Assembly (NCBI GenBank): GCA_016281125.1
Contig: JAEEIA010000017.1
Span: 1-64,000 of the forward strand
DNA length: 64,000 bases
Direction: 5' to 3'
Source: Oscillospiraceae bacterium
Lineage (GTDB): Bacteria > Bacillota > Clostridia > Oscillospirales > Ruminococcaceae
Shown here: one piece after another, positions 2,970 through 25,624 of the stretch
Layout of the letters: every line of letters begins with the position of its first letter
Numbering within the stretch: the stretch's first letter is position 1
The notes under the pieces: model-generated
What the model was told of the DNA's origin: nothing
Database searches by the model: none
What the model saw: only the letters and a program-made list of their open reading frames with translations
Translations under genes and position numbers: made by a program

Positions 2970-2972
2970 TGC

Positions 2973-5904: not shown

Positions 5905-5933
5905 TTGCAATTCCGGCCGATCTGTGCTATAAT
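5905..5933 (+). promoter_or_regulatory. Strong sigma-A promoter facing an apparently non-coding stretch
   Basis: TTGCAA, 17-base spacer, TATAAT. No credible open reading frame follows before the convergent HPr-like gene. Confidence 0.7.
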
Positions 5934-5939
5934 AAGAAA

Positions 5940-6098: not shown

Positions 6099-6099
6099 A

Positions 6100-6348: not shown

Positions 6349-6520
6349 CGGTAAATCCTCACCTTTCGCGGGCCGAATACGGCAGAATCATCGGAAAAAA
6401 CAGCGGTGACGGGGCGCAGCGCCGAACAGTCTGCCGAGAGGGTTGACATACTGCTGCCGAATGCGTGCTCCCGCACACCAAAACGTTTTGGAGGGTTGTC
6501 ATGAATTACCCTAGGCTCAA
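6349..6520 (-). other. Leader region of the HPr-like gene
   Basis: About 165 bases separate promoter and start. It includes the palindrome AAAACGTTTT at 6481-6490, only loosely like a catabolite-responsive element. No open frame with a ribosome binding site was seen. Confidence 0.4.
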
Positions 6521-6549
6521 TATTACACTAGAATCGTGAAAAAGTCAAG
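6521..6549 (-). promoter_or_regulatory. Sigma-A promoter of the HPr-like gene
   Basis: Minus strand TTGACT, 17 bases, TAATAT. Confidence 0.7.
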
Positions 6550-6683
6550 TGAATTCGCGGCTTTTTGTACACCTGACCGATTTTTCGCACGGGTTTCGCA
6601 TTTCTTTTTTGCAATCCGAATAAACTGTTGGGGTTGCACAACGCAAGAATGTTGAAATTGTGCACTATAAACAGGAGAGAAAC

Positions 6684-7976: not shown

Positions 7977-8041
7977 CTGCCGCCGCAGACGGCTCATTCG
8001 ATTTCCCAATATATACTATGTTACTGGAGGCTGATTCGTTC

Positions 8042-11000
8042 ATGGCTGTTTATCGTATTTATACCGAGAAAAAGCCGCAATATGCCGTAGAAGCACAGTC
8101 TGTGCTGTCCGACCTGCGCACCGCGCTGCGTCTGGACGTGCAGGGCATCCGCGTGCTGAACCGCTACGACGCCGACCATATTGAAGCGGAGGATTTCCAG
8201 CGTGCAATCCCGACCGTGTTTTCCGAGCCCGCCGTTGACTACGTCTACGAAAAGCTGCCGATGCTCTCAAACCAGGAGCGCGTCTTTGCCGTGGAGTATC
8301 TCCCCGGTCAGTTTGACCAGCGCGCAGATTCCTGTGAGCAATGTATCCAGATTCTGAACGGAAAAGAGCGCTGCCGCGTCCGCAATGCGCGCATCTACAT
8401 CGTTTCCGGTCTGCTGACGGATGCCGAGTTCGACAAGCTCAAGGCATATCTGATCAACCCGGTCGAAAGCCGCGAGGCTTCGCTGGAAACGGTGGAAACG
8501 CTCGATATGAACTATGCGATTCCGGAAACCGTCGAAACGCTGGACGGCTTCACTGCGCTCGATGAAGCAGGCAGAAAGGCGTTCCTTGCAAAGTACGGCC
8601 TCGCAATGGATCTGGACGACGTCGCATTCTGCCAGGCATATTTCCGCGACACCGAGCACCGTGATCCGACAATCACCGAAATCCGCATGATCGACACCTA
8701 CTGGAGCGATCACTGCCGCCACACCACATTCCTGACGACGATCGACAATGTCAAAATCGAAACGCCGTATATCAAGGATACCTATAATGAATACCTCGCA
8801 GCGCGCAAGGCGCTCGGCAGAGAGAAGAAGCCTGTCACGCTCATGGACATGGCAACCATGGCGATGCGCAAGCTGAAGGCGGACGGCAAGATCCCGGCGC
8901 TCGACGAGAGCGAAGAGATCAACGCATGCTCCGTCAAAATCAAGGTTGACACCGACAAGGGGCAGGAGGACTGGATCCTCATGTTCAAGAACGAAACGCA
9001 CAATCACCCGACAGAGATTGAGCCGTTCGGCGGCGCTGCAACCTGTCTGGGCGGTGCAATCCGTGATCCGCTCTCCGGCAGAAGCTACGTCTATCAGGCC
9101 ATGCGCGTGACCGGTGCGGCGAATCCGCTTGTTCCGGTCGCAGATACGATTCCCGGCAAGCTGCCGCAGAGAAAAATCACCGTCGGCGCAGCCAACGGTT
9201 ACAGCTCCTACGGCAACCAGATCGGTCTGGCAACGGGACATGTTTCCGAGGTCTATCATCCGGGCTATGTTGCAAAGCGTCTGGAAATCGGCGCGGTTGT
9301 CGGCGCTGCACCGGCGGAAAATATCCGCAGAGAGCGTCCGGCGCCCGGTGACATCATCATTCTGCTGGGCGGCAAAACCGGCCGCGACGGCTGCGGCGGT
9401 GCAACCGGTTCCTCCAAGTCCCATACGCTGGAATCCCTGACGCACTGCGGTGCAGAGGTTCAGAAGGGCAATCCGCCCGAGGAGCGCAAGCTCCAGCGTC
9501 TGTTCCGCGATCCCGCAGTCACCAAGCTGATCAAGCGCTGCAACGACTTCGGCGCAGGCGGCGTTTCCGTCGCAATCGGTGAGCTGACCGACGGTCTGGA
9601 CATCGACCTCAACGCTGTTCCGAAAAAGTATGACGGCCTGGACGGCACCGAGCTTGCCATCTCCGAATCGCAGGAGCGCATGGCGGTTGTCGTCGCACCG
9701 GAGGATGTGGACGCCTTCATGGCTGCGGCTGCAAAGGAAAACCTCCTCGCAACGGTCGTGGCAAAGGCAACCGATACGAACCGCCTCCGCATGAACTGGA
9801 ACGGCAAGACCATTGTCGATCTCTCCCGCGAATTTCTGAATTCCAACGGCGCAGAAAAGCACACCGACATTGTGGCGGCAGCACCGACCAAAATGCCGGA
9901 GCGCGACGAGCGCTTTGAGGATACCCCGGACGGCTGGCGCGAGCTGATGAGCAGCCTCAATATCTGCTCGCAGAAGGGTCTTGTCGAAAAGTTTGACTCG
10001 ACAATCGGCGCAGGCACCGTCCTGATGCCCTACGGCGGCGTCTATCAGCTGACACCGGCACAGGCCATGGCAGCCAAGATTCCGGTGCTCAAGGGCGAAA
10101 CCTCGACCTGCTCGATCATGGGCTGGGGCTTCAACCCGGTCATTTCCGAGCACTCCCCGTATCACGGTGCAATCTATGCGGTCATCGAATCGGTCGCAAA
10201 GGTCATCGCTGCGGGCGGCTCCTGGCATCAGTGCTGGCTGACCTTCCAGGAGTATTTTGAGCGCACCCAGAACAATCCCAGACGCTGGGGCAAGCCGTTC
10301 TCCGCGCTGCTCGGCGCTTTCCGTGCCCAGCTGGAGCTCTCCTGTGCATCCATCGGCGGCAAGGATTCCATGTCCGGCACCTTTGAAAATATCGACGTCC
10401 CGCCGACTCTCGTTTCCTTTGCGGTTTCCACAGCGGATACCAAGCGCGTGATCTCCACCGAGTTCAAGGAGGCCGGCAGCACGGTCATCCGGATTGCGCC
10501 GGAGTATTCCAGCAGCGGTCTGCCGAACTGGGAGAGCGTCCGTGCAGTATTTGATCAGGTTGAAAAGTTGATCTCCGACGGCAGAGCCAAGGCAATCTGG
10601 TCCGTCGAAAACGGCGGCGTCGCAGAGGGTCTTGCAAAGATGGCATTCGGCAACCACATCGGCTTTGAATTCACCAAGGTGCTGCCGGAGCGCGTCCTCT
10701 TTGATCCGTGCGCGGGTTCGTTCATCATCGAACTGAACGGCGCTGCCAAGCCCGGCGAGGAGGTCATCGGCAGAACGACCGAACAGTACAAGATTTTCAG
10801 CGATACGCAGACGATCAGCCTCGACACGCTCCAGAAGGCGTGGGAGGGCAAGCTCGAATCTGTATTCCCCTGCCGCATCAAGACCGCATTTGCAACCATC
10901 GAGGCCTATTCGCACAAGGCCGCGACGCGTCCTGCACCGGCTGTCAAGACCGCAAAGCCGCGCGTGCTGATTCCGGTGTTCCCGGGCACAAACTGCGAAT

Positions 11001-11755
11001 ACGATACCGCAAGAGCATTTGAGCGCGCAGGCGCCGTGCCGGAAATCCTTGTCGTGCGCAATCTCTCCGCAAATGACATTGAGCAGTCCGTGGAGGCTGC
11101 GGTCAAGCTGATTGAGAATTCCCAGATGATTATGATTCCGGGCGGCTTCTCCGGCGGTGACGAGCCGGACGGCTCCGGCAAGTTCATCACGGCATTCTTC
11201 CGCAACCCGAAGGTCACGGAGGCTGTGCATAACCTGCTGAAAAACCGCGACGGCCTGATGCTCGGCATCTGCAACGGCTTCCAGGCGCTCGTCAAGCTGG
11301 GCCTTGTCCCCTACGGCGAAATCACCGACATGAGCGAGAATTCCCCGACGCTGACGTTCAACACGATTGCGCGCCACCAGAGCATGATGGTCACCACGCG
11401 CATTGCGTCGAACAAATCGCCGTGGCTGGCTGCCTGCGAGGTCGGCGACCTGCACACGATCCCGATTTCCCACGGCGAAGGCAGATTCATCGCCTCCGGC
11501 TCGCTGCTCCAGCGCATGGCAAACAACGGCCAGATCGCAACACAGTATGTTGATCTCTCCGGACGTCCGACCATGGACATCCGCTTCAATCCGAACGGCT
11601 CTGTGGACGCGATTGAGGGCATCACCTCGCCAGACGGCAGAGTGCTCGGCAAAATGGGACACAGCGAGCGTATCGGCGAGCTGGTCTGCAAGAACGTACC
11701 GGGTGAAAAGGATCAGAAGATCTTTGAAAGCGGCGTCAGATATTTTGCTGACTGA
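8042..11755 (+). CDS. purL: Phosphoribosylformylglycinamidine synthase, single-chain type
   Basis: The 1237-residue enzyme converts FGAR, glutamine and ATP to FGAM in purine synthesis. It combines a PurS-like N-terminal region, the two AIR-synthase-like halves (DTYWSDHCRHTTF, FKNETHNHPTEIEPFGGAAT, GDIIILLGG and others) and a C-terminal class-I glutaminase with PGTNCEYD and the nucleophile cysteine in GICNGFQ at about residue 1077. Many Firmicutes split this into PurS, PurL and PurQ; this is the fused clostridial form. The start at 8042 is chosen for CTGGAGG at good spacing; the upstream ATG at 8018 has none. It has its own promoter and terminator, and no other pur genes are adjacent. Confidence 0.95.
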   Translation: MAVYRIYTEKKPQYAVEAQSVLSDLRTALRLDVQGIRVLNRYDADHIEAEDFQRAIPTVFSEPAVDYVYEKLPMLSNQERVFAVEYLPGQFDQRADSCEQCIQILNGKERCRVRNARIYIVSGLLTDAEFDKLKAYLINPVESREASLETVETLDMNYAIPETVETLDGFTALDEAGRKAFLAKYGLAMDLDDVAFCQAYFRDTEHRDPTITEIRMIDTYWSDHCRHTTFLTTIDNVKIETPYIKDTYNEYLAARKALGREKKPVTLMDMATMAMRKLKADGKIPALDESEEINACSVKIKVDTDKGQEDWILMFKNETHNHPTEIEPFGGAATCLGGAIRDPLSGRSYVYQAMRVTGAANPLVPVADTIPGKLPQRKITVGAANGYSSYGNQIGLATGHVSEVYHPGYVAKRLEIGAVVGAAPAENIRRERPAPGDIIILLGGKTGRDGCGGATGSSKSHTLESLTHCGAEVQKGNPPEERKLQRLFRDPAVTKLIKRCNDFGAGGVSVAIGELTDGLDIDLNAVPKKYDGLDGTELAISESQERMAVVVAPEDVDAFMAAAAKENLLATVVAKATDTNRLRMNWNGKTIVDLSREFLNSNGAEKHTDIVAAAPTKMPERDERFEDTPDGWRELMSSLNICSQKGLVEKFDSTIGAGTVLMPYGGVYQLTPAQAMAAKIPVLKGETSTCSIMGWGFNPVISEHSPYHGAIYAVIESVAKVIAAGGSWHQCWLTFQEYFERTQNNPRRWGKPFSALLGAFRAQLELSCASIGGKDSMSGTFENIDVPPTLVSFAVSTADTKRVISTEFKEAGSTVIRIAPEYSSSGLPNWESVRAVFDQVEKLISDGRAKAIWSVENGGVAEGLAKMAFGNHIGFEFTKVLPERVLFDPCAGSFIIELNGAAKPGEEVIGRTTEQYKIFSDTQTISLDTLQKAWEGKLESVFPCRIKTAFATIEAYSHKAATRPAPAVKTAKPRVLIPVFPGTNCEYDTARAFERAGAVPEILVVRNLSANDIEQSVEAAVKLIENSQMIMIPGGFSGGDEPDGSGKFITAFFRNPKVTEAVHNLLKNRDGLMLGICNGFQALVKLGLVPYGEITDMSENSPTLTFNTIARHQSMMVTTRIASNKSPWLAACEVGDLHTIPISHGEGRFIASGSLLQRMANNGQIATQYVDLSGRPTMDIRFNPNGSVDAIEGITSPDGRVLGKMGHSERIGELVCKNVPGEKDQKIFESGVRYFAD

Positions 11756-11764
11756 TGACAAAAC

Positions 11765-11799
11765 AACCGTCCCTCCGGCTCCGCGCCGGAAGGACGGTT
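11765..11799 (+). terminator. Intrinsic terminator of purL
   Basis: Arms AACCGTCC and GGACGGTT with an inner CCGGC/GCCGG stem, followed by TTCTGT. Confidence 0.8.
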
Positions 11800-11827
11800 T
11801 TCTGTATCATCAGAACCTGCATTGATA

Positions 11828-11867
11828 AAAAGAGCGCTGCTGTACTGTTTGTACAGCAGTGCTCTTT
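11828..11867 (-). terminator. Terminator of array gene 1
   Basis: Arms AAAAGAGCGCTGCTGTAC and GTACAGCAGTGCTCTTT. It is a variant of the hairpin that ends every gene of the array. Confidence 0.8.
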
Positions 11868-11888
11868 GTTGTATTCACTGAAAAGAAA

Positions 11889-13010
11889 TCAGCGATAATA
11901 GTAAGCAAGCCAGCAATTCGTATACGGAGAATACGTTGCATTGTGCTTGTACAGTCCGCACTGACCCCATTTTGAGGTCACAGTGATTGTAGAACCGGAT
12001 ACAGAATTAATGACAGCAGAATGCTGAAGGGCATTATTGCTGTTAGAGAAATATGTCATCTTGCGGTTCGCAGCGGCAACGCTCGTCCGTTTGTAACTTC
12101 CGTCCTTCCAGTATGCGCTCGGATCATTGATCCACTTATCATTGCTTGTAGACTGTTGATACCACGCATAGGAATGGCAGTTATATTTTCCGGAAGCTAA
12201 TGCCAACAGTTCTGCATTCGGATAAGCAGCAGTATATTGCAGAGTAATTTTCATTCTCTGCCAGAACGAAAGCGGCTCGGATGAATTCAAGTATGCGGCA
12301 ACAGCGGTTCCTTTCGGCGTATAGACATATGTGATGGTTGCACTGTCCCGAACTGACTGCATGTCATTCAGAATGGTGCTGTCCTTGCAATTCTTCTCAG
12401 TCAGATCGAACAGAAGACTGTTTGTAAACTCACCGTACACAGGAGAAGCAACCTTATCCTCCATCTTGGATGCAACATTCTTGACGAATCTGCACTTGTC
12501 CTTCTTGCTGAACTTGGTCGTGACAAAGTCCTGTGCCAGCAGAACTTCCATGTTGGTCAGTCTGAACACATCGTCATCAGCGGATGCGTCGGTCAGAACT
12601 TCCTCATCACAATACTTGTCCAGCAGCACAGTGGCAACGTCATCACGGTCAGCCAACTCCTGCACGCCGTTAAAGGTGTCCATCATCAGATCCACGCCGA
12701 CCTGAACATCTTCAAAAGCATAAATGTCATAGAAATAAGGATAATCGAGAACAGCCTCAACAAGTGCGTCGGTCGTCATGCGATCCAGCATGTACTGCGG
12801 CAGCTGAAGCATCTCACCGTTCGCTGCACGATCCTCAGAAGTCTGGAATGCCTTGGACAGAATCACGCGGTTGTAAAAGCTCTCCGCAGTTGTATAGTCC
12901 TTAATTGTGTAATCCATCGGTTTCTCAGCAGCAGCAGCGGAAAACGGTGCGGTGGTTACGGTCAGAACAGTGAGAACAGATGTTACGATTGATACGAGTT
13001 TTTGTTTCAT
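11889..13010 (-). CDS. Secreted CHSYAW-motif protein, array paralogue 1 of 6
   Basis: The mature start is MKQKLVSIV at 13010, set by AAAAGGAGTAAG 5 bases upstream; a frame extending to 13049 lacks this. The 373-residue protein has a signal peptide cut near SAAAAEK (about 28-30). An N-terminal domain (about 33-235) follows, with DYTIKDYTTAESFYNR, MLDRMTTDALVEAVLDYP, FNGVQELADRDDVA and ASPVYGEFT segments conserved in all six copies. A variable linker (TPKGT...SSEPL) leads to a C-terminal domain with NCHSYAW (Cys278), QHSAV (His330) and SKWGQCGLYKH. The Cys and His order suggests a papain/NlpC-like hydrolase fold; this is inference. It belongs to the short clade with paralogues 2 and 6. Function unknown. 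Confidence 0.85.
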   Translation of the reverse strand: MKQKLVSIVTSVLTVLTVTTAPFSAAAAEKPMDYTIKDYTTAESFYNRVILSKAFQTSEDRAANGEMLQLPQYMLDRMTTDALVEAVLDYPYFYDIYAFEDVQVGVDLMMDTFNGVQELADRDDVATVLLDKYCDEEVLTDASADDDVFRLTNMEVLLAQDFVTTKFSKKDKCRFVKNVASKMEDKVASPVYGEFTNSLLFDLTEKNCKDSTILNDMQSVRDSATITYVYTPKGTAVAAYLNSSEPLSFWQRMKITLQYTAAYPNAELLALASGKYNCHSYAWYQQSTSNDKWINDPSAYWKDGSYKRTSVAAANRKMTYFSNSNNALQHSAVINSVSGSTITVTSKWGQCGLYKHNATYSPYTNCWLAYYYR

Positions 13011-13059
13011 TTTCTTACTCCTTTTTTCATAATTCATCCGAAGATACATTGCGCAATAT

Positions 13060-13074
13060 TCAACCGGATGTATA
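13060..13074 (-). promoter_or_regulatory. Conserved TATACATCCGGTTGA box, array gene 1
   Basis: The 15-base box directly follows the -10 and recurs at the same place before all six array genes. It may be an operator or a 5' UTR signal. Confidence 0.55.
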
Positions 13075-13075
13075 T

Positions 13076-13104
13076 ATTATATCAGATTATCCGCAGATTG
13101 TCAA
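13076..13104 (-). promoter_or_regulatory. Sigma-A promoter of array gene 1
   Basis: Minus strand TTGACA, 17 bases, TATAAT: a consensus promoter. Confidence 0.85.
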
Positions 13105-13329
13105 CTTTTTCGGACGATTATTCACCGTTTTATCTTGTTAGCAGCAAGATATTTTTAACCGTAGCAGAATAGGTGAAAATCACCTGTGATAGATTATGTT
13201 AAAACTGCGCATAATAAATACGCATACAAATTTCCGGGTATTTTCCACAAAGATGAACGCACATTATTGTTAAATCTGCGACGCCGATACAACAAATTGT
13301 ATAGACATGTCCATATCCAAACAGAGAGA
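13105..13329 (-). promoter_or_regulatory. Upstream control region of array gene 1
   Basis: On the minus strand, moving away from the promoter, it holds CAAGATAAAAC (13127-13137), TTTTAACA (13197-13204) and ATACAATTTGTTGTA (13288-13302). Related boxes occur at matching distances before the other paralogues. No gene is seen in this 225-base stretch. Confidence 0.45.
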
Positions 13330-13331
13330 AA

Positions 13332-13368
13332 AAGAGAGCTGCTGCGTGGTGCAGCAACTCTCTTTGCT
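13332..13368 (-). terminator. Terminator of array gene 2
   Basis: Arms AGAGAGCTGCTGC and GCAGCAACTCTCT around a GTGGT-like loop; the same hairpin type as the other array genes. Confidence 0.8.
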
Positions 13369-13385
13369 TGTTGTAAGCTGACGAA

Positions 13386-14492
13386 TCAGCGGCAGTAATA
13401 CTTCAGAATGTTGCAGTAGGTATACGGGCAGTTGCGCGTCGTGTGACGATATACTCCATACGGACCCCACTTGGATTCCAGTGTCACAGCACCATATGCC
13501 GAAACGACAATCGCGGAGTGTTCAGGAGAATTGCCGGAGAAGAATTCGAGCTTGCGGCCGCCGGAAATCATGGACGTTTCATGATAGCTGCCATCGTTCC
13601 AATATGCGCTCGGATTCGGCATCCAGTGATTATTACTGGTTGAGGTCGAGTAGAACGCATAGGAATGGCAGTTATATTTGCCGGATGCGCTGCGGTATCT
13701 CGTTGCGGTCGGGTATTGGCTGTCAGCATATCTGTTCATATCATTGATTTCAGACTGTGTAAACGGCTCCGACGACGATTGCGTTGTAGAAACTCTTGTA
13801 CCGTTCGGTGTCTTCACATATGCGCCATCTCTGACCTTCTCCATATTCTTCTGGAGAGCGCTGTCCTTGGTATTTTCCGCGGTCAGCTCAAACATCAGGT
13901 TACTGGTGTATTCACCGTACACCGGAGAAGCAGCCTTGTCCGCCAGCTTTGAAGCGACTGTCTTGGTGTACTTGGACTTCTCTTTCTTGGAGAGCTTCGT
14001 CGTAACAAAGTTCTGAGAAAGCAGGATTTCCATGTTGGTCAGTCTGAACACATCCTCATCCGCAGATGCGTCTGTCAGAACTTCCTCATCGCAATACTTG
14101 TCCAGAAGAACGGATGCAACGTCATCACGGTCAGCCAGTTCCTGCACGCCGTTGAAGTGCTCCATCATCAGATCAAAGCCGTCCTGTGCATTGTCAAATG
14201 CATAGACATCGCAGAAGAACGGATAATCAAGAACAGCCTCAGCCAGTGCATCGGTTGTCATGCGATCCAGCATATACTGCGGCAGCTGAAGCATTTCACC
14301 GCGCGCAATGCGATCATCGGACTGCTGCCAGGACTTGGACAGAACCACGCGGTTATAGAAACTCTCTGCGGTGGTGTAATCCTTGATTGTGTAGTCCGCC
14401 GGCTTCTCAGAAGCTGCTGCGGAGAACGGAACGGTTGTTGCTGCGAAAACGGTGAGTACAGATGTGATGATTGCTGCGATGTTGTGTTTCAT
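13386..14492 (-). CDS. Secreted CHSYAF-motif protein, array paralogue 2 of 6
   Basis: The 368-residue protein starts MKHNIAAIITSV with AAAAAGGAGTATC upstream. Its signal peptide ends near SAAASEK and the conserved N-terminal domain follows. The C-terminal domain has NCHSYAF (Cys275; the others have W), PEHSAIVV and SKWGPYGVYRH. This copy lacks the YPNGFPIH insertion of paralogues 3 to 5. Its N-terminal domain is as well conserved as in its neighbours, while the linker and C-terminal region differ most, which suggests selection for diversity in the C-terminal part. Separate promoter and terminator show it is not co-transcribed. Function unknown. Confidence 0.85.
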   Translation of the reverse strand: MKHNIAAIITSVLTVFAATTVPFSAAASEKPADYTIKDYTTAESFYNRVVLSKSWQQSDDRIARGEMLQLPQYMLDRMTTDALAEAVLDYPFFCDVYAFDNAQDGFDLMMEHFNGVQELADRDDVASVLLDKYCDEEVLTDASADEDVFRLTNMEILLSQNFVTTKLSKKEKSKYTKTVASKLADKAASPVYGEYTSNLMFELTAENTKDSALQKNMEKVRDGAYVKTPNGTRVSTTQSSSEPFTQSEINDMNRYADSQYPTATRYRSASGKYNCHSYAFYSTSTSNNHWMPNPSAYWNDGSYHETSMISGGRKLEFFSGNSPEHSAIVVSAYGAVTLESKWGPYGVYRHTTRNCPYTYCNILKYYCR

Positions 14493-14542
14493 TTGAGATA
14501 CTCCTTTTTCTTATTATATCCTGAGTTTATCATGCGCACGAT

Positions 14543-14557
14543 TCAACCGGATGTATA
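14543..14557 (-). promoter_or_regulatory. Conserved TATACATCCGGTTGA box, array gene 2
   Basis: Identical to the box before genes 1, 3, 4 and 5, placed directly after the -10. Confidence 0.55.
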
Positions 14558-14558
14558 C

Positions 14559-14587
14559 ATTATAGCAAATCGCTTCAAAAATGTCAA
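14559..14587 (-). promoter_or_regulatory. Sigma-A promoter of array gene 2
   Basis: Minus strand TTGACA, 17 bases, TATAAT. Confidence 0.85.
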
Positions 14588-14840
14588 TAGTCTGCGATAT
14601 CTTTTATAGTTTTATCTTGCTTCGCCCGTCAATTCTCGGAATAAAAGTAGAAACGAAGAAAACGTGTGTTCATGTCGTTCTGTTAAATATAAGAATATTG
14701 CGATTCTGAACAAATTCCTGAAATTATTCACACATGTGGCGCTGACAGTTTCTTCCGCTTCACTGCTGATATATAACAAACTGTACAATCATACCGGCAG
14801 CGCAGCTCCGCCCCGACAGGTATCGCCGCTGATAATCTGC
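14588..14840 (-). promoter_or_regulatory. Upstream control region of array gene 2
   Basis: Boxes on the minus strand: GCAAGATAAAAC (14609-14620), CTTATATTTAACA (14681-14693) and TGTACAGTTTGTTATA (14772-14787). They stand about 25, 100 and 185 bases above the -35. The remaining AT-rich sequence is not conserved, and no gene is seen. Confidence 0.5.
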
Positions 14841-14845
14841 ATAAA

Positions 14846-14880
14846 AAAGAGAGTCGCTGCAAGGTGCAGCAACTCTCTTT
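14846..14880 (-). terminator. Terminator of array gene 3
   Basis: Arms AAAGAGAGTCGCTGC and GCAGCAACTCTCTTT. Confidence 0.82.
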
Positions 14881-14896
14881 GATGCATTGGTGCAAA

Positions 14897-16036
14897 TTAT
14901 GCGCGCTGGAAGAAACCGAGGCAGTAGTAGGTGTACGGGCTGTCGTTCCAGACGTGACGATACAGACCGCAGGAACCCCACTTAGATCTCATTGTGAGCA
15001 CATTGTTGGAGTAAGAGTAAACAATCGCGGAGTGGATCGGGAAGCCGTTCGGATACTCCGGGCTGTTCTTTGCGATGTAAACAGCCTTACGGCCGGAAAC
15101 GATCGAATTTGCGCCGACATAGCTGCCGTCATTGACATACGCAACCGGATTGTTCATCCAGTGCTTGTTGCTGGAAGAAGTAGAATACCATGCATAGGAA
15201 TGGCAGTTGTACTTTTTGGATGCGCTGCGCAGTTTTACTGCATTCGGATACGCCGAAGCACAAGAAGCGTCGTAGGAGTTGATCTGAGCCTGTGTCAGCG
15301 GCTCGGTATCATTCGCAATGGTGGGAACCTGCGTACCGTTCGGGGTCGTGACATAGGAAGAATATCCGCGATCTCTTGCCTCAGCCATGTCGCTCAGGAG
15401 CGCGCTGTCTGCGGAATTGTTCTCCAGCAGATCGAACAGCAGACCATTGGTGTATTCACCGTACACCGGAGAAGCAACCTTCTCTTCCATCTTGGAAGCG
15501 ACGGTCTTCACGAACTTGCACTTTTCCTTCTTGCTGAACTTGGTCGTAACGAAATCCTGGGACATCAGAATCTCCATGTTGGTCAGTCTGAGCACATCAG
15601 AGTCAGCAGCAGCGTCCGTCAGGACCTCTTCGTCGCAGTACTTGTCAAGCAGAACGGATGCAACGTCATCACGGTCAGCCAGCTCCTGCACGCCGTTGAA
15701 GTGTTCCATCATCAGATCGACACCGACCTGAACATCATCGAACGCATAAACGTCGCAGAAGAAAGGATAATCCAGAACCGCCTCAACCAGGGCATCGGTC
15801 GTCAAGCGGTCAACCAGGTATGCCGGCAGCTGAACCATTTCGCCGCGCTCTGCACGGTCTACGGTCTGCTGCCACGCCTTGGAAAGAACAACACGATTGT
15901 AGAAGCTCTCTGCGGTCGTGTAATCTTTGATCGTGTAGTCCGCTGCCTTGTCAGCTGCCATTGCAGAGAACGGAGCGGATGTGACGGTCAGAACAGTGAG
16001 AACAGATGTTACGATTGATACAATTTTGTGCTTCAT
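14897..16036 (-). CDS. Secreted CHSYAW-motif protein, array paralogue 3 of 6
   Basis: The start is MKHKIVSIV at 16036, with AAGGAGTATCTCA before it; the longer frame to 16054 overlaps this site. The 379-residue protein has a signal peptide ending near SAMAADK and the conserved N-terminal domain. The C-terminal domain has NCHSYAW (Cys278), then SPEYPNGFPIHSAIVYSYS and SKWGSCGLYRH. The YPNGFPIH insertion places it in the long clade with paralogues 4 and 5. It ends in GFFQRA; paralogue 5 ends similarly in GFKRA. Candidate Cys-His hydrolase by motif order only; the target is unknown. Confidence 0.85.
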   Translation of the reverse strand: MKHKIVSIVTSVLTVLTVTSAPFSAMAADKAADYTIKDYTTAESFYNRVVLSKAWQQTVDRAERGEMVQLPAYLVDRLTTDALVEAVLDYPFFCDVYAFDDVQVGVDLMMEHFNGVQELADRDDVASVLLDKYCDEEVLTDAAADSDVLRLTNMEILMSQDFVTTKFSKKEKCKFVKTVASKMEEKVASPVYGEYTNGLLFDLLENNSADSALLSDMAEARDRGYSSYVTTPNGTQVPTIANDTEPLTQAQINSYDASCASAYPNAVKLRSASKKYNCHSYAWYSTSSSNKHWMNNPVAYVNDGSYVGANSIVSGRKAVYIAKNSPEYPNGFPIHSAIVYSYSNNVLTMRSKWGSCGLYRHVWNDSPYTYYCLGFFQRA

Positions 16037-16104
16037 TGAGATACTCCTTATCATATTTTTTCATAATATTGCTATGCTTCATCCCGTGTTTTATTGGCCA
16101 ATAA

Positions 16105-16119
16105 TCAACCGGATGTATA
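16105..16119 (-). promoter_or_regulatory. Conserved TATACATCCGGTTGA box, array gene 3
   Basis: Same 15 bases and position relative to the -10 as in the other array genes. Confidence 0.55.
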
Positions 16120-16120
16120 T

Positions 16121-16149
16121 ATCATACCAGATTTTTTTAGAAATGTCAA
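16121..16149 (-). promoter_or_regulatory. Sigma-A promoter of array gene 3
   Basis: Minus strand TTGACA, 17 bases, TATGAT. Confidence 0.85.
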
Positions 16150-16428
16150 TAGCATTCGGCTTTTTTCTATTGTTTTATCTTGCCATATGTCATGACACGC
16201 GAAAAAACATGTATCATCAGATAATACATGCATTCCAAATTCATGTTAAATATAACATCGTTGCTCTTGACATACACTCTTTATTATTTTACTTCCACGG
16301 GGATCTGCAATTCGCCCAGATTCGCACCTGATAAATAACAAATAGTACAGTTCGCGCAAGGCATAATCCGCGTCGAAAAAGGCAAAATCATCCTATTTTT
16401 CAACAAGCCCGCTTCAGACATGCAAAAC
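16150..16428 (-). promoter_or_regulatory. Upstream control region of array gene 3
   Basis: Minus-strand boxes GCAAGATAAAAC (16172-16183), TTATATTTAACA (16244-16255) and CTGTACTATTTGTTATT (16334-16350). No gene is seen in this stretch. Confidence 0.5.
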
Positions 16429-16463
16429 AAAAGAGAGCTGCCGCAAATACAGCAACTCTCTTT
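16429..16463 (-). terminator. Terminator of array gene 4
   Basis: Arms AAAGAGAGCTG and CAGCAACTCTCTTT, with a two-base bulge. Confidence 0.8.
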
Positions 16464-16482
16464 GAATCATGTATGCAAATAA

Positions 16483-17631
16483 TCAGCGAACAGCAAAAGC
16501 AAGGTAATAATAGGAATACGGGCAGTTGGACCAAGTGTGACGGTACAGACCGAACTGTCCCCACTTGGACTGAAGAACAAGTGAACCAGTTGTTCCGCTA
16601 TACGAATATACGTTTGCAGAATGCATCGGATAACCGTTCGGATATTTCGGGCTATTATATGCACGATAAAGCACCTTCGAACCGACATTGTTGTTTTGTG
16701 TCCAATGATAGCTTCCGTCATTGATGTATGCATACGGTTCACTCAGCCAGATATTATTGCTCGTAGACTGAGAATACCATGCATAGGAATGGCAGTTATA
16801 CCTTGCAGATGCGCTGCGAAGTTTTGTAGCGGCCGAATAATAGGTTTGACAATATCCATCATATTCACTGATCTGTGTCTGCGAAAGCGGCTCAACATTA
16901 GACGCTCTTCCCTGAACAGGCGACCCATTCGGTGTGTAAACCGTGACCAGGAACGATTCGCCATCCTTGACCTCATTCAGATTCTTCAGGAAATTGCCAT
17001 CCTTGAAATTCTCCTCAGCCAGATCAAACAGCAGATTGTTGGTGAATTCACCGTAAACCGGAGAAGCAGCCTTGTCTTCCATCTTGGAAGCAACCGCCTT
17101 AACGAACTTGTTCTTCTCCTTCTTGCTGAGCTTCGCCGTGAAGAAGTCCTGGGTGAGAAGAATCTCCATATTAGTCAGCCTGAACACTTCACCGTCCGCA
17201 GACGCTTCATCCGTCAGAACCTCCTCGCCGCAGTACTTATCCAGCAGAACAGAAGCGACGTCATCACGGTCAGCCAGCTCCTGCACGCCGTTGAAGTGCT
17301 CCATCATCAGATCAAAACCGTCCTGAACATCGTCGAATGCATAAACATCATTGAAGTAAGGGAAATCGAGAACCGCCTCAGCCAGTGCGTCAGTCGTCAT
17401 GCGATCCAGCATGTACTGCGGCAGCTGGAGCATTTCGCCGCGCTCGGCACGATCCTCAGAGGTCTGGAATGCCTTGGACAGAACCACACGGCTATAAAAA
17501 CTCTCTGCTGTAGTGTAATCCTTGATTGTGTAATCTGCCGTTTTTTCAGCTGCGGAGGCAGCGAACGGCGCAGTTGTTACGGTCAGTACAGAAAGTACAG
17601 AAGCAACGATTGATACAAGTCTTTGTTTCAT
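16483..17631 (-). CDS. Secreted CHSYAW-motif protein, array paralogue 4 of 6
   Basis: The 382-residue protein starts MKQRLVSIV with ACAAGGAGTATC upstream. The signal peptide ends near AASAAEK. The conserved N-terminal domain has one extra residue in the acidic LTDEASADGEVFRL stretch. The C-terminal domain has NCHSYAW (Cys280), YPNGYPMHSANVYSYS (His337) and SKWGQFGLYRH. The loop before SKWG is two residues longer (GTTGSLVL) than in its long-clade neighbours. It has its own consensus promoter and hairpin terminator. Function unknown. Confidence 0.85.
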   Translation of the reverse strand: MKQRLVSIVASVLSVLTVTTAPFAASAAEKTADYTIKDYTTAESFYSRVVLSKAFQTSEDRAERGEMLQLPQYMLDRMTTDALAEAVLDFPYFNDVYAFDDVQDGFDLMMEHFNGVQELADRDDVASVLLDKYCGEEVLTDEASADGEVFRLTNMEILLTQDFFTAKLSKKEKNKFVKAVASKMEDKAASPVYGEFTNNLLFDLAEENFKDGNFLKNLNEVKDGESFLVTVYTPNGSPVQGRASNVEPLSQTQISEYDGYCQTYYSAATKLRSASARYNCHSYAWYSQSTSNNIWLSEPYAYINDGSYHWTQNNNVGSKVLYRAYNSPKYPNGYPMHSANVYSYSGTTGSLVLQSKWGQFGLYRHTWSNCPYSYYYLAFAVR

Positions 17632-17701
17632 AGTAAGATACTCCTTGTCATAATGTTGTATTGATGTTGTATTGATACCCTAAGTTGCTATTGCGCAATA
17701 T

Positions 17702-17716
17702 TCAACCGGATGTATA
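17702..17716 (-). promoter_or_regulatory. Conserved TATACATCCGGTTGA box, array gene 4
   Basis: Same 15 bases directly after the -10. Confidence 0.55.
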
Positions 17717-17717
17717 T

Positions 17718-17746
17718 ATCATACCAGATTTCCACTTGAATGTCAA
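17718..17746 (-). promoter_or_regulatory. Sigma-A promoter of array gene 4
   Basis: Minus strand TTGACA, 17 bases, TATGAT. Confidence 0.85.
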
Positions 17747-18002
17747 TAGCTCCAAATTTGTTTCACAATTCTATATTGCGTTTTACAGAAACCGCACAAA
17801 AGCGAGATGATGCATTGATTTCGCAGCGCAGTGCGCTTGTTAAATATAAGATCACTGCTTTTCACGACACAAATTTCATAATTTCTTAATCTGTCCAAAT
17901 CAATCACATTATATAACAATCTGTACAAAATAGCATCTCAAAATTCCATTGATTTCAGACTCGAAAAGACAAAATTCTGACATTTTCAAACCCGTAAGAG
18001 AA
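17747..18002 (-). promoter_or_regulatory. Upstream control region of array gene 4
   Basis: Minus-strand boxes CTTATATTTAACA (17838-17850), GATTAAGAAATTATGAA (about 17873-17891) and TGTACAGATTGTTATA (17912-17927). The distal box is 19 bases nearer the promoter than in the other copies, about two helical turns. The GCAAGATAAAAC box is not recognisable here. Confidence 0.5.
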
Positions 18003-18037
18003 AAAAGAGAGCTGCCGCAAATGCAGCAACTCTCTTT
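18003..18037 (-). terminator. Terminator of array gene 5
   Basis: Arms AAAGAGAGCTGC and GCAGCAACTCTCTTT. Confidence 0.82.
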
Positions 18038-18054
18038 GGATTTATTTCAGTGAA

Positions 18055-19206
18055 TCAGGCGCGCTTAAAACCATAGAGATCAAAATAAGAATACGGGCAA
18101 TTTGTCACACTATGGCGATACAGTCCGCATTGACCCCACTTAGAGGTCACCTTCTGAATCGCGTTATTGGAATACGAATAGAGGATTGCGGAATGTATCG
18201 GGAATCCATCCGGATAATCCGGGGAATTCTTTGCAACGTACACAAGCTTAAGACCCGAAGAAAGCTTTGATGCGCTGACATAGCTTCCGTCACTAACATA
18301 CAGTGCCGGATTGTTCATCCAATGCGAGTTGCTCGTAGACTGGGAATACCACGCATAGGAATGGCAGTTATACTTACCGGACGCATCGCGCAGTTTGGTT
18401 GCATTCGGATAATCGCGGGCGCACAAAGCGTTAATAACCATAATCTGGCTCTGTGTAAGCGGTTCCGAATCGTGGTAAGTCGTGCCAACCTTCGTGCCCT
18501 TCGGCGTCGTAACATAGCCGGGGCCGTATCCGTCTTTGACATCCTGCACATTCTTCAGCAGACCGCCGTCATTGAAATTCTTCTCAGCAAGGTCGAACAG
18601 AAGATTGTTGGTGAAGTCACCGCAAACCTCAGAAGCCAGCTTGTCTTCCATCTTGGAAGCGACGCTCTTGACGAACTTGTTCTTTTCCTTCTTGGTGAAC
18701 TTGGTCGTAACAAAGTCCTGGGACATCAGAATCTCCATGTTGGTCAGTCTGAACATCTCTGAATCCGCATCAGCGGAATCTGCCTCCATCATGACGTCCT
18801 CATCGCAATACTTATCCAGCAGCACAGAAGCAACGTCATCACGGTCAGCCAGCTCCTGCACGCCGTTGAAAGTATCCATCATCAGATCGAAGCCGACCTG
18901 AACATCATCGAACGCATAGACATCATAGAAGAACGGATAGTCAAGAACTGCCTCAACCAGTGCGTCCGTCGTCATGCGGTCGAGCATATACTGCGGCAGC
19001 TGAAGCATCTCGCCGCGCTCCACGCGGTCTTCCGACTGCTGCCATGTTTTAGAAAGGGTAACACGGTTATAAAAGCCTTCTGCGGTTGTGTAATCCTTGA
19101 TTGTGTAATCTGCCGGATTCTCCGCTGCGGATGCAGCGAACGGCATGGTTGTTACGGTCAGTGCCGAAAGTACAGATGCAACGATTGATACGAGCTTTTG
19201 TTTCAT
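18055..19206 (-). CDS. Secreted CHSYAW-motif protein, array paralogue 5 of 6
   Basis: The 383-residue protein starts MKQKLVSIV with CAAGGAGTATTTG upstream. The signal peptide ends near AASAAEN. The N-terminal domain reads CDEDVMMEADSADADSEMF, two or three residues longer in the acidic loop, and has ASEVCGDFT where the others have ASPVYGEFT. The C-terminal domain has NCHSYAW (Cys281), YPDGFPIHSAILYSYS and SKWGQCGLYRH. It is in the long clade and is closest by eye to paralogue 3. Function unknown. Confidence 0.85.
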   Translation of the reverse strand: MKQKLVSIVASVLSALTVTTMPFAASAAENPADYTIKDYTTAEGFYNRVTLSKTWQQSEDRVERGEMLQLPQYMLDRMTTDALVEAVLDYPFFYDVYAFDDVQVGFDLMMDTFNGVQELADRDDVASVLLDKYCDEDVMMEADSADADSEMFRLTNMEILMSQDFVTTKFTKKEKNKFVKSVASKMEDKLASEVCGDFTNNLLFDLAEKNFNDGGLLKNVQDVKDGYGPGYVTTPKGTKVGTTYHDSEPLTQSQIMVINALCARDYPNATKLRDASGKYNCHSYAWYSQSTSNSHWMNNPALYVSDGSYVSASKLSSGLKLVYVAKNSPDYPDGFPIHSAILYSYSNNAIQKVTSKWGQCGLYRHSVTNCPYSYFDLYGFKRA

Positions 19207-19276
19207 TTCAAATACTCCTTGTCATTTTTCTTGTCATAATTTTGCTGTGTTTATCCTGCATTTTATCGCGCAATAA

Positions 19277-19291
19277 TCAACCGGATGTATA
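19277..19291 (-). promoter_or_regulatory. Conserved TATACATCCGGTTGA box, array gene 5
   Basis: Same 15 bases directly after the -10. Confidence 0.55.
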
Positions 19292-19292
19292 C

Positions 19293-19321
19293 ATCATATC
19301 AGATTTCCAAGGAAATGTCAA
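19293..19321 (-). promoter_or_regulatory. Sigma-A promoter of array gene 5
   Basis: Minus strand TTGACA, 17 bases, TATGAT. Confidence 0.85.
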
Positions 19322-19599
19322 TAGCTCCCGAATTATTTTCTGATTCCCGCTTGCCCGAAGTGCATAAAATCGAAAGCGACGTATACACGTGTTATTCATC
19401 ATGCTGTGCTCATGTTAAATATCAATTCTTTGCAACAAAAGCGCAATCTTCATAATTTCTTAATCCGTCAAAATTGTGTTTGGACCGCCTTGCGGCCGTT
19501 CATCAATATAACAATCTGTACAGTATATCTGATACAAAAATACATACTCCGCTGTCCGCATAGTAAAAGCAGAACAATACAAAATATCAAATGCAAAGC
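19322..19599 (-). promoter_or_regulatory. Upstream control region of array gene 5
   Basis: Minus-strand boxes ATATTTAACA (19413-19422), GGATTAAGAAATTATGAA (about 19449-19466) and TGTACAGATTGTTATA (19507-19522). No gene is seen. Confidence 0.5.
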
Positions 19600-19639
19600 A
19601 AAAGAGAACCGCCGCACGTCGGTGCAGCAGTTCTCTTTT
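19600..19639 (-). terminator. Terminator of array gene 6
   Basis: Arms AAAAGAGAAC and GTTCTCTTTT with an inner GC-rich stem; a diverged member of the array terminator family. Confidence 0.78.
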
Positions 19640-19698
19640 TCATCACAGATCAGTACACTGCTTTCAAGCGTACCGGAAGCCGAATCCGTCAGACGGAA

Positions 19699-20826
19699 TC
19701 AGCGATAGAAGCAATAATACTTGCAGTTCGTGTACGGAGAGTTGGTCAGGCTGTGACGGTACAGTCCGCACTTGCCCCACTTGGAATTCACAGTGATCGT
19801 AGAGTTGGAAACAGAGTAAACGATCGAGGAATGCTGGAGGGTGTTCTTGCTGCGGTCAACATAGATAATTTTGCGGCCGGCTTTCGCAGTCGTGGTCTGC
19901 TTATAGCTCTTATCGGTCCAGTATGCGCTCGGGTTATTGATCCACTTATTGTTGGAAGTGGAGGTAGAATACCACGCATAAGAATGGCAGTTGTACTTGC
20001 CGGAAGCGCTGCGCAGTCTTTTTGCCTTCGGATATGCAGCGTCATATTTCTTATTGATGCTGCTGATCTGGGAGGAAGAAAGCGGCTCCGTCGAATATGC
20101 AGTCGCAGCCACCTTTGTGCCGTTCGGGGTCTTGACATAGGTGCTGGTTGCTTTGCCGTCGCGGACAGTCTGCATGTCCTTCAGCAGACCGCTGTCCTTG
20201 GAGTTCTCCTCAGTCAGGTCAAATACCAGATTGTTGGTAAAGTCGCCGTACACCGGCGAAGCAATCTTATCATCCATCTTGGATGCGATGTTCTTGACGA
20301 ACTTGCTCTTCTCCTTCTTGTCGAGCTTCGTCGTAACAAAGTCCTGAGAAAGCAGAACCTCAAGGTTGGTCAGTCTGAACACTTCCGCATCCGCAGAAGA
20401 TGCATCCGTCAGAACCTCTTCGCCGCTGTACTTATCAAGCAGAACAGAAGCAACATCATCGCGGTCTGCCAGCTCTCTTACGCCGTTAAAGGTCTGCATC
20501 ATCAGATCGACGCCTTCCTGGACATCATCAAACGCATAAATGTCATAGAAATAAGGATAATCGAGGACAGCCTCGACCAGAGCATCGGTGGTCATACGGT
20601 TCAGCATATATGCCGGCAGCTGGAGCATTTCGCCGCGCTCATTGCGGTCATCGGAGTTCTGCCAGGACTTGGACAGAACAACACGGTTGTAATAGCTCTC
20701 GGCAGCTGCATAATCCTTGATCGTGTAATCCGTTGTTTTTCCAGCAGCAGCAGCAGTAAACGGTGCGGTCGTAACAGTCAGGACAGTGAGAACGGATGTT
20801 ACGAGTGATACGATTTTTTGTTTCAT
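19699..20826 (-). CDS. Secreted CHSYAW-motif protein, array paralogue 6 of 6
   Basis: The start is MKQKIVSLV at 20826, with AAAAGGAGTATTATT before it; the frame to 20853 overlaps this site. The 375-residue protein has a signal peptide ending near TAAAAGK. Its N-terminal domain reads DYAAAESYYNR where the others have DYTTAESFYNR. The C-terminal domain has NCHSYAW (Cys280), LQHSSIVYSVS and SKWGKCGLYRH. With LQHS and SPYTNC it pairs with paralogue 1 at the opposite end of the array, so order and similarity do not run in parallel. Function unknown. Confidence 0.85.
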   Translation of the reverse strand: MKQKIVSLVTSVLTVLTVTTAPFTAAAAGKTTDYTIKDYAAAESYYNRVVLSKSWQNSDDRNERGEMLQLPAYMLNRMTTDALVEAVLDYPYFYDIYAFDDVQEGVDLMMQTFNGVRELADRDDVASVLLDKYSGEEVLTDASSADAEVFRLTNLEVLLSQDFVTTKLDKKEKSKFVKNIASKMDDKIASPVYGDFTNNLVFDLTEENSKDSGLLKDMQTVRDGKATSTYVKTPNGTKVAATAYSTEPLSSSQISSINKKYDAAYPKAKRLRSASGKYNCHSYAWYSTSTSNNKWINNPSAYWTDKSYKQTTTAKAGRKIIYVDRSKNTLQHSSIVYSVSNSTITVNSKWGKCGLYRHSLTNSPYTNCKYYCFYR

Positions 20827-20882
20827 AATAATACTCCTTTTATCGTTTGTCAAATGTAATCCTGAATTATACTGCGCAATAT

Positions 20883-20898
20883 GAACCCGGATGTTTCA
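20883..20898 (-). promoter_or_regulatory. Variant ACATCCGGGTTC box, array gene 6
   Basis: It corresponds to the TATACATCCGGTTGA box of the other genes but is diverged on both flanks. Confidence 0.45.
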
Positions 20899-20899
20899 T

Positions 20900-20928
20900 A
20901 TTATACCAGATTGATACTGAAAAGTCAA
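20900..20928 (-). promoter_or_regulatory. Sigma-A promoter of array gene 6
   Basis: Minus strand TTGACT, 17 bases, TATAAT. Confidence 0.85.
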
Positions 20929-23338: not shown

Positions 23339-25624
23339 ATGAAACTGATTCGTTACACATCTGTCCTGACAGCGTTCCTGATGCTGGCCGCCGCCGTGCA
23401 GCCTGTTCCGGCTGCCGCAGTGCCTTTTGCGGGATCTGCTGCTGTATCCGCTGCGGAAGAGGAGCCTGTTGCTGCGGATACAATCGGGGAAACGATTCGC
23501 TGGCAGCTGGATGCCGCCGGTGTTCTGACGCTTACCGGTTCCGGTGATATGGCAGCCGTGAACGGAAATGCATTCGGTTCCAACGCGGCAAAGATCAAAA
23601 GTGCTGTCATCCGGAATGCAGACAGCAAAAATGTGATTACGGCAATCGGCGCCGGACTGTTCCGCGGATGCACGTCGCTGGAAAGCGTTACCCTGCCGGA
23701 CACTGTTGTGTCAATCGGGGAAGATGCCTTTTACGGATGCACCGCCCTGACGGCATTTCCATTCCCGAAATCGCTGACCGAAATCGGCCGGAACGGTTTT
23801 CACAGCAGCGGCCTGACGGAAGTGACACTTCCGGGCTGTACGCTCGGCAGCGGCGCGTTTTACGCATGCGCCGATCTGAAAACGGTGACAATCGGAGAGG
23901 GTACGGAGATCATTCCGGCTGAATGCTTCCGGAAATGTGCTGCGCTGGAAAGCGTCACACTGCCGGATTCGGTGAAGGACATCGCCTGCGGCAGCTATAC
24001 AGAGCAGGGCGCATTTTCGGAGTGCCCGGCACTGAAAACGGTTTCAATCGGCAAGGGCATTGAAACCATTCACCAGAACGCTTTCCGTACATGCGGTGAG
24101 GGTCTTGCAGTCACCTTCCGTGAGGGCGTGACAGCAGTGCCCGCAGAAGCCTTCAAAAACCGCACGGAGCTTGCAAAGGTCATTCTGCCGGAAACGCTGA
24201 CATCTGTCGGTGAATCCGCATTTCAAGGGTGCAGCGCGCTGACGGACTGCACATTCCCGAAGTCACTGACAGAAATCGGCCGGAACGTTTTTCACAGCAG
24301 CGGCCTGACGGAAGTCACACTTCCGGGCTGCACGCTCGGCAGCGGCGCGTTTTACGCATGCGCCGATCTGAAAACGGTGACAATCGGAGAGGGAACGGAG
24401 ATGATTCCGGCTGAATGCTTCCGGAAATGTGCGGTACTGGAAAGCGTCACACTGCCGGATTCGGTAAAGGACATCGCCTGCGGCAGCTATACTGAGCAGG
24501 GCGCTTTTTCAGAGTGTCCGGCACTGAAAACGGTTTCAATCGGCAAGGGCATTGAAACCATTCATCAAAACGCTTTCCGCACATGCGGTGAGGGACTTGC
24601 GGTCACCTTCCGTGATGGCGTGACAGCAGTGCCCGCAGAAGCCTTCAAAAACCGCACGGAGCTTGCTAAGGTCATTCTGCCGGAAACGCTGACTTCTGTC
24701 GGTGAATCCGCATTTCAGGGGTGCAGCGCGCTGACAGACTGCACATTTCCGAAGTCGCTGACAGAGATCGGTCGGAACGGTTTTCACAGCAGCGGCCTGA
24801 CGGAAGTGACACTTCCGGGCTGTACGCTTGGCAACGGCGCGTTTTACGCATGCGCCGATCTGAAAACGGTGACAATCGGAGAGGGTACGGAAATCATTCC
24901 GGCTGAATGCTTCCGGAAATGTGCTGCGCTGGAAAGCGTCACACTGCCGGATTCGGTAAAGGACATCGCCTGCGGCAGCTATACAGAGCAGGGCGCATTT
25001 TCAGAGTGTCCGGCACTGAAAACCGTTTCAATCGGCAAAGACATTGAAACAATACATCAGAACGCTTTCCGCACGACAGGCGATGAACTGGAGGTTGTAT
25101 TCCGGAAAGGAACGGCTGCCATTCCGGATCACGCATTTGACAACGCACCCGTTACAAAAATCATTCTGCCCAAAAGCGTTGAAGCAATCGGTGCGGAGGC
25201 GGTTTCCGGCTGTGCGAGCCTGAAAGAAATTCTGATTCAGGCACCGGAATGCGAAATCGCTGACAGTGCCAAGGCGATTCCCAAGGGTGCGACAATCCGG
25301 AGCTATGAGGGCAGTACCCCGCAGGCGCATGCGGAAAAATACGAATACAAATTCGTGAAGCTGCTGCTGCCGGGCGATCTGAACGATGACGGCGCAGTCA
25401 GTGTGGATGACGCGCAGATGACGCTGAAAGCGTATACAGAACGCATCGCAGGAAACGACATGAAGCTGACAGCGGATCAGATTCTGGCAGCAGATGTGGA
25501 CGAAAGCGGCGAGCTCAGCGTGGAGGACGCGCAGTTTATCCTCAAATACTATACGGCAAAGACGGTTGCGCAAAAGGATATCACATGGGATGATATTCTG
25601 AATCCGCCTGCGAAGCAACCTTGA
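23339..25624 (+). CDS. Secreted BspA-type leucine-rich-repeat protein with C-terminal dockerin
   Basis: The 761-residue protein has a signal peptide (cut near AAVPFAG or later) and an N-terminal TIRWQLDAAGVLTLTGSGDM segment common before BspA-type LRRs. A long LRR_5 array made largely of a 164-residue unit repeated almost three times follows. At about 676-755 is a type I dockerin with two Ca-binding repeats, DLNDDGAVSVDDAQMTLKAY and DVDESGELSVEDAQFILKYY. Dockerins bind scaffoldin cohesins, so the protein is probably cell-surface or cellulosome attached. BspA-type LRRs often mediate adhesion; the ligand here is unknown. AAAGGAG precedes the start. Confidence 0.92.
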   Translation: MKLIRYTSVLTAFLMLAAAVQPVPAAAVPFAGSAAVSAAEEEPVAADTIGETIRWQLDAAGVLTLTGSGDMAAVNGNAFGSNAAKIKSAVIRNADSKNVITAIGAGLFRGCTSLESVTLPDTVVSIGEDAFYGCTALTAFPFPKSLTEIGRNGFHSSGLTEVTLPGCTLGSGAFYACADLKTVTIGEGTEIIPAECFRKCAALESVTLPDSVKDIACGSYTEQGAFSECPALKTVSIGKGIETIHQNAFRTCGEGLAVTFREGVTAVPAEAFKNRTELAKVILPETLTSVGESAFQGCSALTDCTFPKSLTEIGRNVFHSSGLTEVTLPGCTLGSGAFYACADLKTVTIGEGTEMIPAECFRKCAVLESVTLPDSVKDIACGSYTEQGAFSECPALKTVSIGKGIETIHQNAFRTCGEGLAVTFRDGVTAVPAEAFKNRTELAKVILPETLTSVGESAFQGCSALTDCTFPKSLTEIGRNGFHSSGLTEVTLPGCTLGNGAFYACADLKTVTIGEGTEIIPAECFRKCAALESVTLPDSVKDIACGSYTEQGAFSECPALKTVSIGKDIETIHQNAFRTTGDELEVVFRKGTAAIPDHAFDNAPVTKIILPKSVEAIGAEAVSGCASLKEILIQAPECEIADSAKAIPKGATIRSYEGSTPQAHAEKYEYKFVKLLLPGDLNDDGAVSVDDAQMTLKAYTERIAGNDMKLTADQILAADVDESGELSVEDAQFILKYYTAKTVAQKDITWDDILNPPAKQP
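23764..25050 (+). repeat. Tandem 492-bp repeats within the LRR gene
   Basis: Near-identical units begin at about 23764, 24254 and 24746, each encoding 164 residues from FPKSLTEIGRN. Identity is high at DNA level, with mostly scattered single-base changes, which indicates recent duplication or gene conversion. The last unit is partial. Confidence 0.85.

Follow-up and report, generated by a model that had tools for sequence, protein, structure and literature searches.

Six tandem exported paralogues in an Oscillospiraceae genome combine a near-constant N-terminal domain with a diversified, putatively hydrolytic C-terminal domain

What is the function of six consecutive genes for exported-looking proteins, in which one half of the product is almost constant and the other half varies? 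This question is raised by an array at positions 11889–20826 (minus strand) of a 64,000-nucleotide stretch of an Oscillospiraceae bacterium genome (contig JAEEIA010000017.1, assembly GCA_016281125.1), hereafter the window. The explanation we consider somewhat probable is that each gene encodes an exported cysteine hydrolase to which a helical partner domain is dedicated, and that amplification of the unit gave the catalytic halves room to specialise; both activity and target are putative.

The six tandem genes described in the initial annotation were recovered with exactly the same boundaries, and their products are 368–383 amino acids (aa) long. Gene 1 (11889–13010; 373 aa) encodes a signal peptide, an N domain (12327–12914) and a C domain (11892–12326). 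In the other genes, the N and C domains lie at 13818–14396 and 13389–13817 (gene 2, 13386–14492; 368 aa), 15353–15940 and 14900–15352 (gene 3, 14897–16036; 379 aa), 16942–17535 and 16486–16941 (gene 4, 16483–17631; 382 aa), 18514–19110 and 18058–18513 (gene 5, 18055–19206; 383 aa), and 20137–20730 and 19702–20136 (gene 6, 19699–20826; 375 aa). Signal-peptide-like starts, judged by eye and mutually alike, are present in all six proteins, which can be aligned from end to end. The motifs DYTIKDY, ELADRDDVA, NCHSYA and SKWG are common to all of them; HSA occurs in five (HSS in the remaining one), and ASPVYGE/D also in five, copy 5 having ASEVCGD. The copies have a mean column identity of 83% over the N part, compared with 65% over the C part, which agrees with the earlier description of exported paralogues with a near-constant N-terminal and a varied C-terminal part. 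A seventh copy was not found in the source genome (3.9 Mb, 98 contigs, 95.5% complete).

The AlphaFold models of copy 5 are confident, with a predicted local distance difference test (pLDDT) score of 93.6 for the whole protein and 97.0 for the C domain alone. The C domain model exhibits the papain/NlpC order of elements, in which Cys281 opens a helix and His338 is located on a later strand. The core helix starting at Cys281 is predicted at 249–255 of the whole model and 49–55 of the C model, and His338 (306 in the model) lies within the predicted strand 303–314, downstream of strand 288–293. The residues Cys278 and His330, to which attention had been drawn initially, are correctly numbered for copy 1 and are equivalent to 281 and 338 in copy 5. 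In the structural list, 13 of the 50 rows are restricted to the C half; all of them are NlpC/P60-type or untyped bacterial peptidases, with modest Z scores of 5.2–6.4. Foldseek found no significant structural match.

Relatives were collected in one scan of genome contigs with a 14-row C-domain alignment, which gave 231 pattern matches, 212 of them confirmed. A set of 83 sequences, made up of relatives and window copies, was used for conservation analysis and for a Pfam scan at E-values up to 1. In its rows, His338 is conserved in 73 of 73 letters and SKWG in 71 of 71, while His365 and Pro371 are 99% conserved. Because the relatives were found with a pattern, the conservation of YNCH is built in, whereas that of His338, SKWG, His365 and Pro371 is not. 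Some of the relatives, among them L017 and L033, have a GD motif, which is absent from the six window copies. Judging by the model, Cys281 and His338 are most likely the catalytic pair of a cysteine hydrolase; the third catalytic residue is probably Ser355 of SKWG or His365.

Known families offer little for the array proteins themselves. Pfam and NCBIfam searches at E-values up to 10 returned only chance-level models for the six proteins: copy 2 matched three in Pfam (best 0.072) and copy 6 one in NCBIfam (0.33). The Pfam scan contained no peptidase model. A PDB sequence search with the array proteins gave no match. With three of the six proteins, PADLOC gave no match, and PHROGs gave a single PHROG of unknown function (0.067) over the C domain of copy 4. 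In these collections, therefore, no named family with such a layout was found, as the initial annotation had supposed.

The relatives are more informative. They matched 40 Pfam families, and the following figures refer to the matches listed, which cover 25 of these families. DUF7689 (PF24738) was matched by 25 of the 83 members (best 2.9e-6), and CHAP (best 1.8e-5), Amidase_6 (4.7e-5) and NLPC_P60 (8.4e-4) by two members each. The cut-off of DUF7689 is 22.6 bits; the four relatives with scores are all below it, and the six window proteins have no match. The best DUF7689 relative is probably above the cut-off, judging by its E-value. No paper naming this family was found in the literature searched. 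For CHAP, relative L100 reached 19.3 bits, under the 26-bit cut-off, and the window copies had no match. When the C-domain profile was compared with 11 CHAP proteins of the host's bacterial family, the alignment (P 2.4e-4) spanned 35 columns surrounding the conserved His, without reaching the Cys (reversed CHAP 0.51; N domain against CHAP 0.33). The comparison with 22 Amidase_6 proteins was weak (P 0.014, reversed control 0.078), and the positive control, CHAP against Amidase_6, gave 80% probability. The papain/NlpC-like fold suggested earlier for the C domain is supported by the element order of the model and by the profile matches of the relatives, though not by Foldseek.

The N domain, which is helical, and the C domain form a recurrent separable pair, newly recognised here. 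Among the loci of the best 80 of the 212 confirmed relatives, the two domains are fused at 44, encoded by adjacent separate genes on the same strand at 15, and C occurs without a detected N at 21; an extra adjacent N gene is present at 7 of the 44 fused loci. These counts include two near-duplicates (L049 of L048, and L108 of plasmid locus L030) and L082, counted as separate although the start of its C protein is masked. Both arrangements are found on plasmids: in a 251-kb Parabacteroides distasonis plasmid the N and C genes overlap by 4 bases (L030, 4811–6702), and in a 22-kb Flavonifractor plautii plasmid they are fused (L029, 7236–8405). According to a simple rule of our own, a lipobox is present in 9 of the 27 N-only proteins, and the remaining 18 begin with a more or less hydrophobic segment; the N domain in trans is therefore mostly an envelope protein too. 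The C domain also has other partners. In L074 (2402–4389) it follows a helix-turn-helix DNA-binding start and a hydrophobic region, and a lipoprotein gene overlaps the end of this gene. In L109 (9833–10342) the C domain of a short protein is preceded by a SUKH-1 (SMI1/KNR4) start (E 4.5e-7), and a lipoprotein gene adjoins.

The family is scattered across phyla, yet rare per genome. Record titles of the relatives include Bacillota, Bacteroidota, Chloroflexota, Planctomycetota, Actinomycetota, Elusimicrobiota and others, and metagenome bins are frequent among these records. The whole-protein profile matches 4 of 197 genomes of the host's bacterial family, its own included, the other three over N only; the C profile matches 7 of 398 genomes of the phylum, again including its own, and in a 299-genome sample the C and N profiles each pick the same two genomes, one of them its own. 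The N domain of L032, titled Alistipes senegalensis (Bacteroidota), falls into one group with the window copies (100/96), which might be due to transfer or to a contig that does not belong in the metagenome bin.

How could such a pair work? The C domain would be a divergent relative of the papain-like NlpC/P60–CHAP–amidase group, a cysteine hydrolase acting on peptide bonds of peptidoglycan or on another extracellular amide. Since the two domains are separate neighbouring genes elsewhere, the N domain would be a dedicated helical partner docking on the C domain, most likely regulatory or inhibitory in the manner of a pro-domain. In the source genome the pair would have been amplified to six copies with one promoter each, and the N half would have changed little and the C half diversified, a pattern to be expected of copies that have their own substrates or targets but share one control half. 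The computation shows export-type starts, domain pairing, the order of the predicted fold elements, the divergence pattern and promoter-like sites; catalysis, inhibition and an extracellular target of the array proteins are inferred.

One finding weighs against a pure inhibitor role: the N domain was found in three related genomes (G029, G030 and G035) where the best C-profile E-value is 0.058, so that no convincing C domain accompanies it. The constant delivery or regulatory domain proposed in the initial annotation is near-constant indeed, but it cannot serve delivery only, as it also occurs as a separate protein beside C genes and in these three genomes. On contig 26 of G035, two tandem genes for lipoprotein-like N-domain proteins without a C domain (L133, 8983–10474) are flanked by what we take to be grpE-like and dnaK-like genes, i.e., they lie within a heat-shock cluster. 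In L035 (4908–6135) and L036 (8224–9450), N–C (L035) or N and C (L036) are preceded by a gene whose product combines a long polar start and a hydrophobic span with an N domain, and a presumed sigma-factor-like gene ends less than 10 bases upstream of that gene. This arrangement resembles sigma/anti-sigma regulation by way of an external N domain. Pairs of what are presumably BlaI/BlaR1-like regulators near the N–C gene (L044, 8221–11125; L137, 10577–12606) may point to cell-wall-stress control.

The divergence of the array was estimated from synonymous substitutions per site (dS, Nei–Gojobori). The mean dS of the N domain is 0.97 over 15 pairs; the dS of the C domain is higher in all 15 pairs and saturated in 4. 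The array had been thought to be recently expanded; an N-domain dS of about 1 and a partly saturated C-domain dS do not support this, and the expansion is old. Trees were constructed from 50 proteins with both domains, omitting L049, L108, L106, L086, L072, L082 and rows with short domains. The six N domains form one group (support 93/96), and so do the six C domains (96/93, in a tree whose bootstrap was not yet stable), hence the diversity of C most probably originated in situ. Taking the 50 rows together, N has the longer median end branch (0.64, against 0.40 for C), while within the array the order is reversed (N 0.076–0.16, C 0.13–0.47). The C data reject the N tree in the approximately unbiased (AU) test (0.010 for nucleotides, 0.007 for protein); the C tree is rejected by the N data at the protein level (AU 0.002) but not at the nucleotide level (0.14). 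These topology tests suggest exchange between array copies. The C halves are diversified, and the N halves look homogenised.

A TTGACA-17-TATAAT-type site is located 65–86 bases upstream of the ATG of each gene, followed by a conserved leader. On the minus strand, gene 1 has the element 13050–13104 (TTGACA-17-TATAAT at 13076–13104, leader ACATCCGGTTGAATATTGCGCA at 13050–13071) and gene 2 the element 14533–14587 (TTGACA-17-TATAAT at 14559–14587, leader at 14533–14554). Three genes have TTGACA-17-TATGAT, namely gene 3 (element 16095–16149; site 16121–16149, leader 16095–16116), gene 4 (17692–17746; 17718–17746, 17692–17713) and gene 5 (19267–19321; 19293–19321, 19267–19288), and gene 6 has TTGACT-17-TATAAT (20873–20928; 20900–20928, 20873–20894). 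A 22-base leader core, derived from the six copies themselves, is found at these six places only in the genome at up to 3 mismatches (backwards control 0). Terminator-like hairpins on the same strand were matched by a pattern 3′ of genes 2 (13329–13365), 3 (14843–14880), 4 (16429–16463), 5 (18001–18037) and 6 (19600–19640); a variant hairpin 3′ of gene 1 (11827–11868) was missed by the pattern and read by eye. Each copy therefore looks like its own transcription unit, to judge from these sequence signals.

The array is AT-rich, with a guanine–cytosine (GC) content of 0.464 (11889–20900) against 0.559 (1–11888 plus 28001–64000). It is missing from both of two congeners, whose PurL proteins are 91% and 86% identical to that of the host. 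In the 17-kb stretches compared, similarity to both stops at the purL stop (11756), and the array locus is not common to them. Further along the window, an exported-looking 761-aa protein (23339–25624, plus strand) has BspA-type leucine-rich repeats (LRR_5, E 9e-134), three near-identical blocks and a dockerin-like C-terminal segment (Dockerin_1, E 7.6e-4, below cut-off). A secreted-looking LRR_5 protein (25740–27377, minus strand) contains a transglutaminase-like segment (E 6e-4, below cut-off).

The strongest rival explanation is a role in conflict, because relatives have lipoprotein neighbours, an enrichment likewise newly recognised here. In 82 loci, a lipobox, called by our simple rule, is present in 31 of 62 adjacent same-strand non-N open reading frames of 100–330 aa, compared with 27 of 551 other such frames (odds ratio 19, Fisher p 2e-19, a statistic that ignores shared ancestry). 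This count excludes the window, L021, L022, L049, L108 and L132–L135, as well as L052 and L097, whose C genes were lost by the gene picker. After trimming of signal peptides, one lipoprotein family was found at six loci (five Paenibacillaceae, one Lachnospiraceae) and another at five (Clostridia, two of them Desulfosporosinus); the remaining ones were not linked to one another at the sensitivity used, and ten that were scanned had no Pfam match above cut-off. The array would then be a repertoire of secreted antibacterial toxins, each copy active on the cell wall; in relatives, the adjacent lipoprotein or a separate membrane-bound N protein would provide immunity, whereas the array's producer would be protected by N in cis or by a gene elsewhere in the genome. 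Two small families among otherwise unlinked lipoproteins are what fast-evolving immunity would leave, and the diversified C domains, the SUKH-1 domain upstream of one of them, the deviating GC content and the non-syntenic locus fit as well. However, no lipoprotein or other immunity-like gene is visible between the copies in the window, no toxin-delivery domain was found among the proteins scanned with Pfam, and the trees indicate divergence in place rather than imported foreign C domains. We regard this explanation as possible but unlikely. The earlier observation that immunity genes are missing between the copies holds for the window array, but relatives often carry a small lipoprotein gene by the C gene, so the lack is a trait of this array and not of the family.

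Housekeeping or niche enzymes, whose substrate-specialised copies would remodel the wall of the producing cell or break down peptides from diet or host, with N as adaptor or anchor, are a slightly more doubtful proposal. The consensus-like vegetative promoters ahead of all six copies, the secreted LRR/dockerin-like proteins adjoining the array, and the presumed envelope-type regulators near some relatives are in line with it, but such a role sits poorly with the patchy distribution in the bacterial family and the lack of the array in two congeners. That the proteins are non-catalytic receptors or ligands on a peptidase fold, with the conserved YNCH...HS...SKWG as a binding site, is improbable: the CH pair and SKWG are unusual for NlpC and Foldseek found nothing significant, but a Cys at a helix start and a His on a later strand are kept in records of several phyla.

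If the exported cysteine hydrolase with its partner is the right assignment, two unnamed domains of "hypothetical" exported proteins receive a concrete and testable one. Should the partner inhibit the enzyme, or the lipoprotein confer immunity, the pair would represent a new secreted conflict or wall-control system, and the six copies would offer a natural experiment on its specificity. More speculatively, the family might be a widespread undescribed extracellular effector–regulator cassette: a helical regulator and an NlpC-like hydrolase with CH/SKWG, fused or neighbouring, often with a fast-evolving lipoprotein as third member. Where a genome builds an array of it, gene conversion would keep the regulator halves homogeneous, and the enzyme halves would diversify into a repertoire of targets.

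Among known systems, polymorphic toxin–immunity systems share the constant N part and the diversified C part, but their immunity gene beside each toxin gene is not seen in the window. DUF7689 matches part of the relatives and none of the six window proteins. NlpC/P60 and CHAP (PF00877, PF05257) resemble the array family in the Cys at a helix start, the His on a later strand, the export-type start and the topology, and relatives give weak profile links to them. Unlike these families, the window copies match neither model, carry a His right after the nucleophile and lack GD, and invariant SKWG stands where the third residue is expected. We know of no N-type partner domain in NlpC/P60 or CHAP families. 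Passages of PMC10318531 place the NlpC/P60 and CHAP peptidoglycan endopeptidases and amidases in papain-like cluster II, describe a GD motif on the first strand as a trait of the NlpC/P60–CHAP–amidase group, and give Ser as the third catalytic residue of Tae3. As in Amidase_6/Tae3-type enzymes (PF12671), SKWG could supply this Ser, but no type VI context is seen around the array family. The I29 inhibitory propeptides of papain-like enzymes also exist as stand-alone inhibitors, according to passages of PMC3355106 and PMC6010012. No sequence relation of I29 to the N domain was found, and N domains exist without C. The parallel would lie in the working principle only: a domain that is part of the enzyme's own chain in some cases is encoded next to it in others, as the N domain is at 44 and 15 of the 80 loci, respectively.

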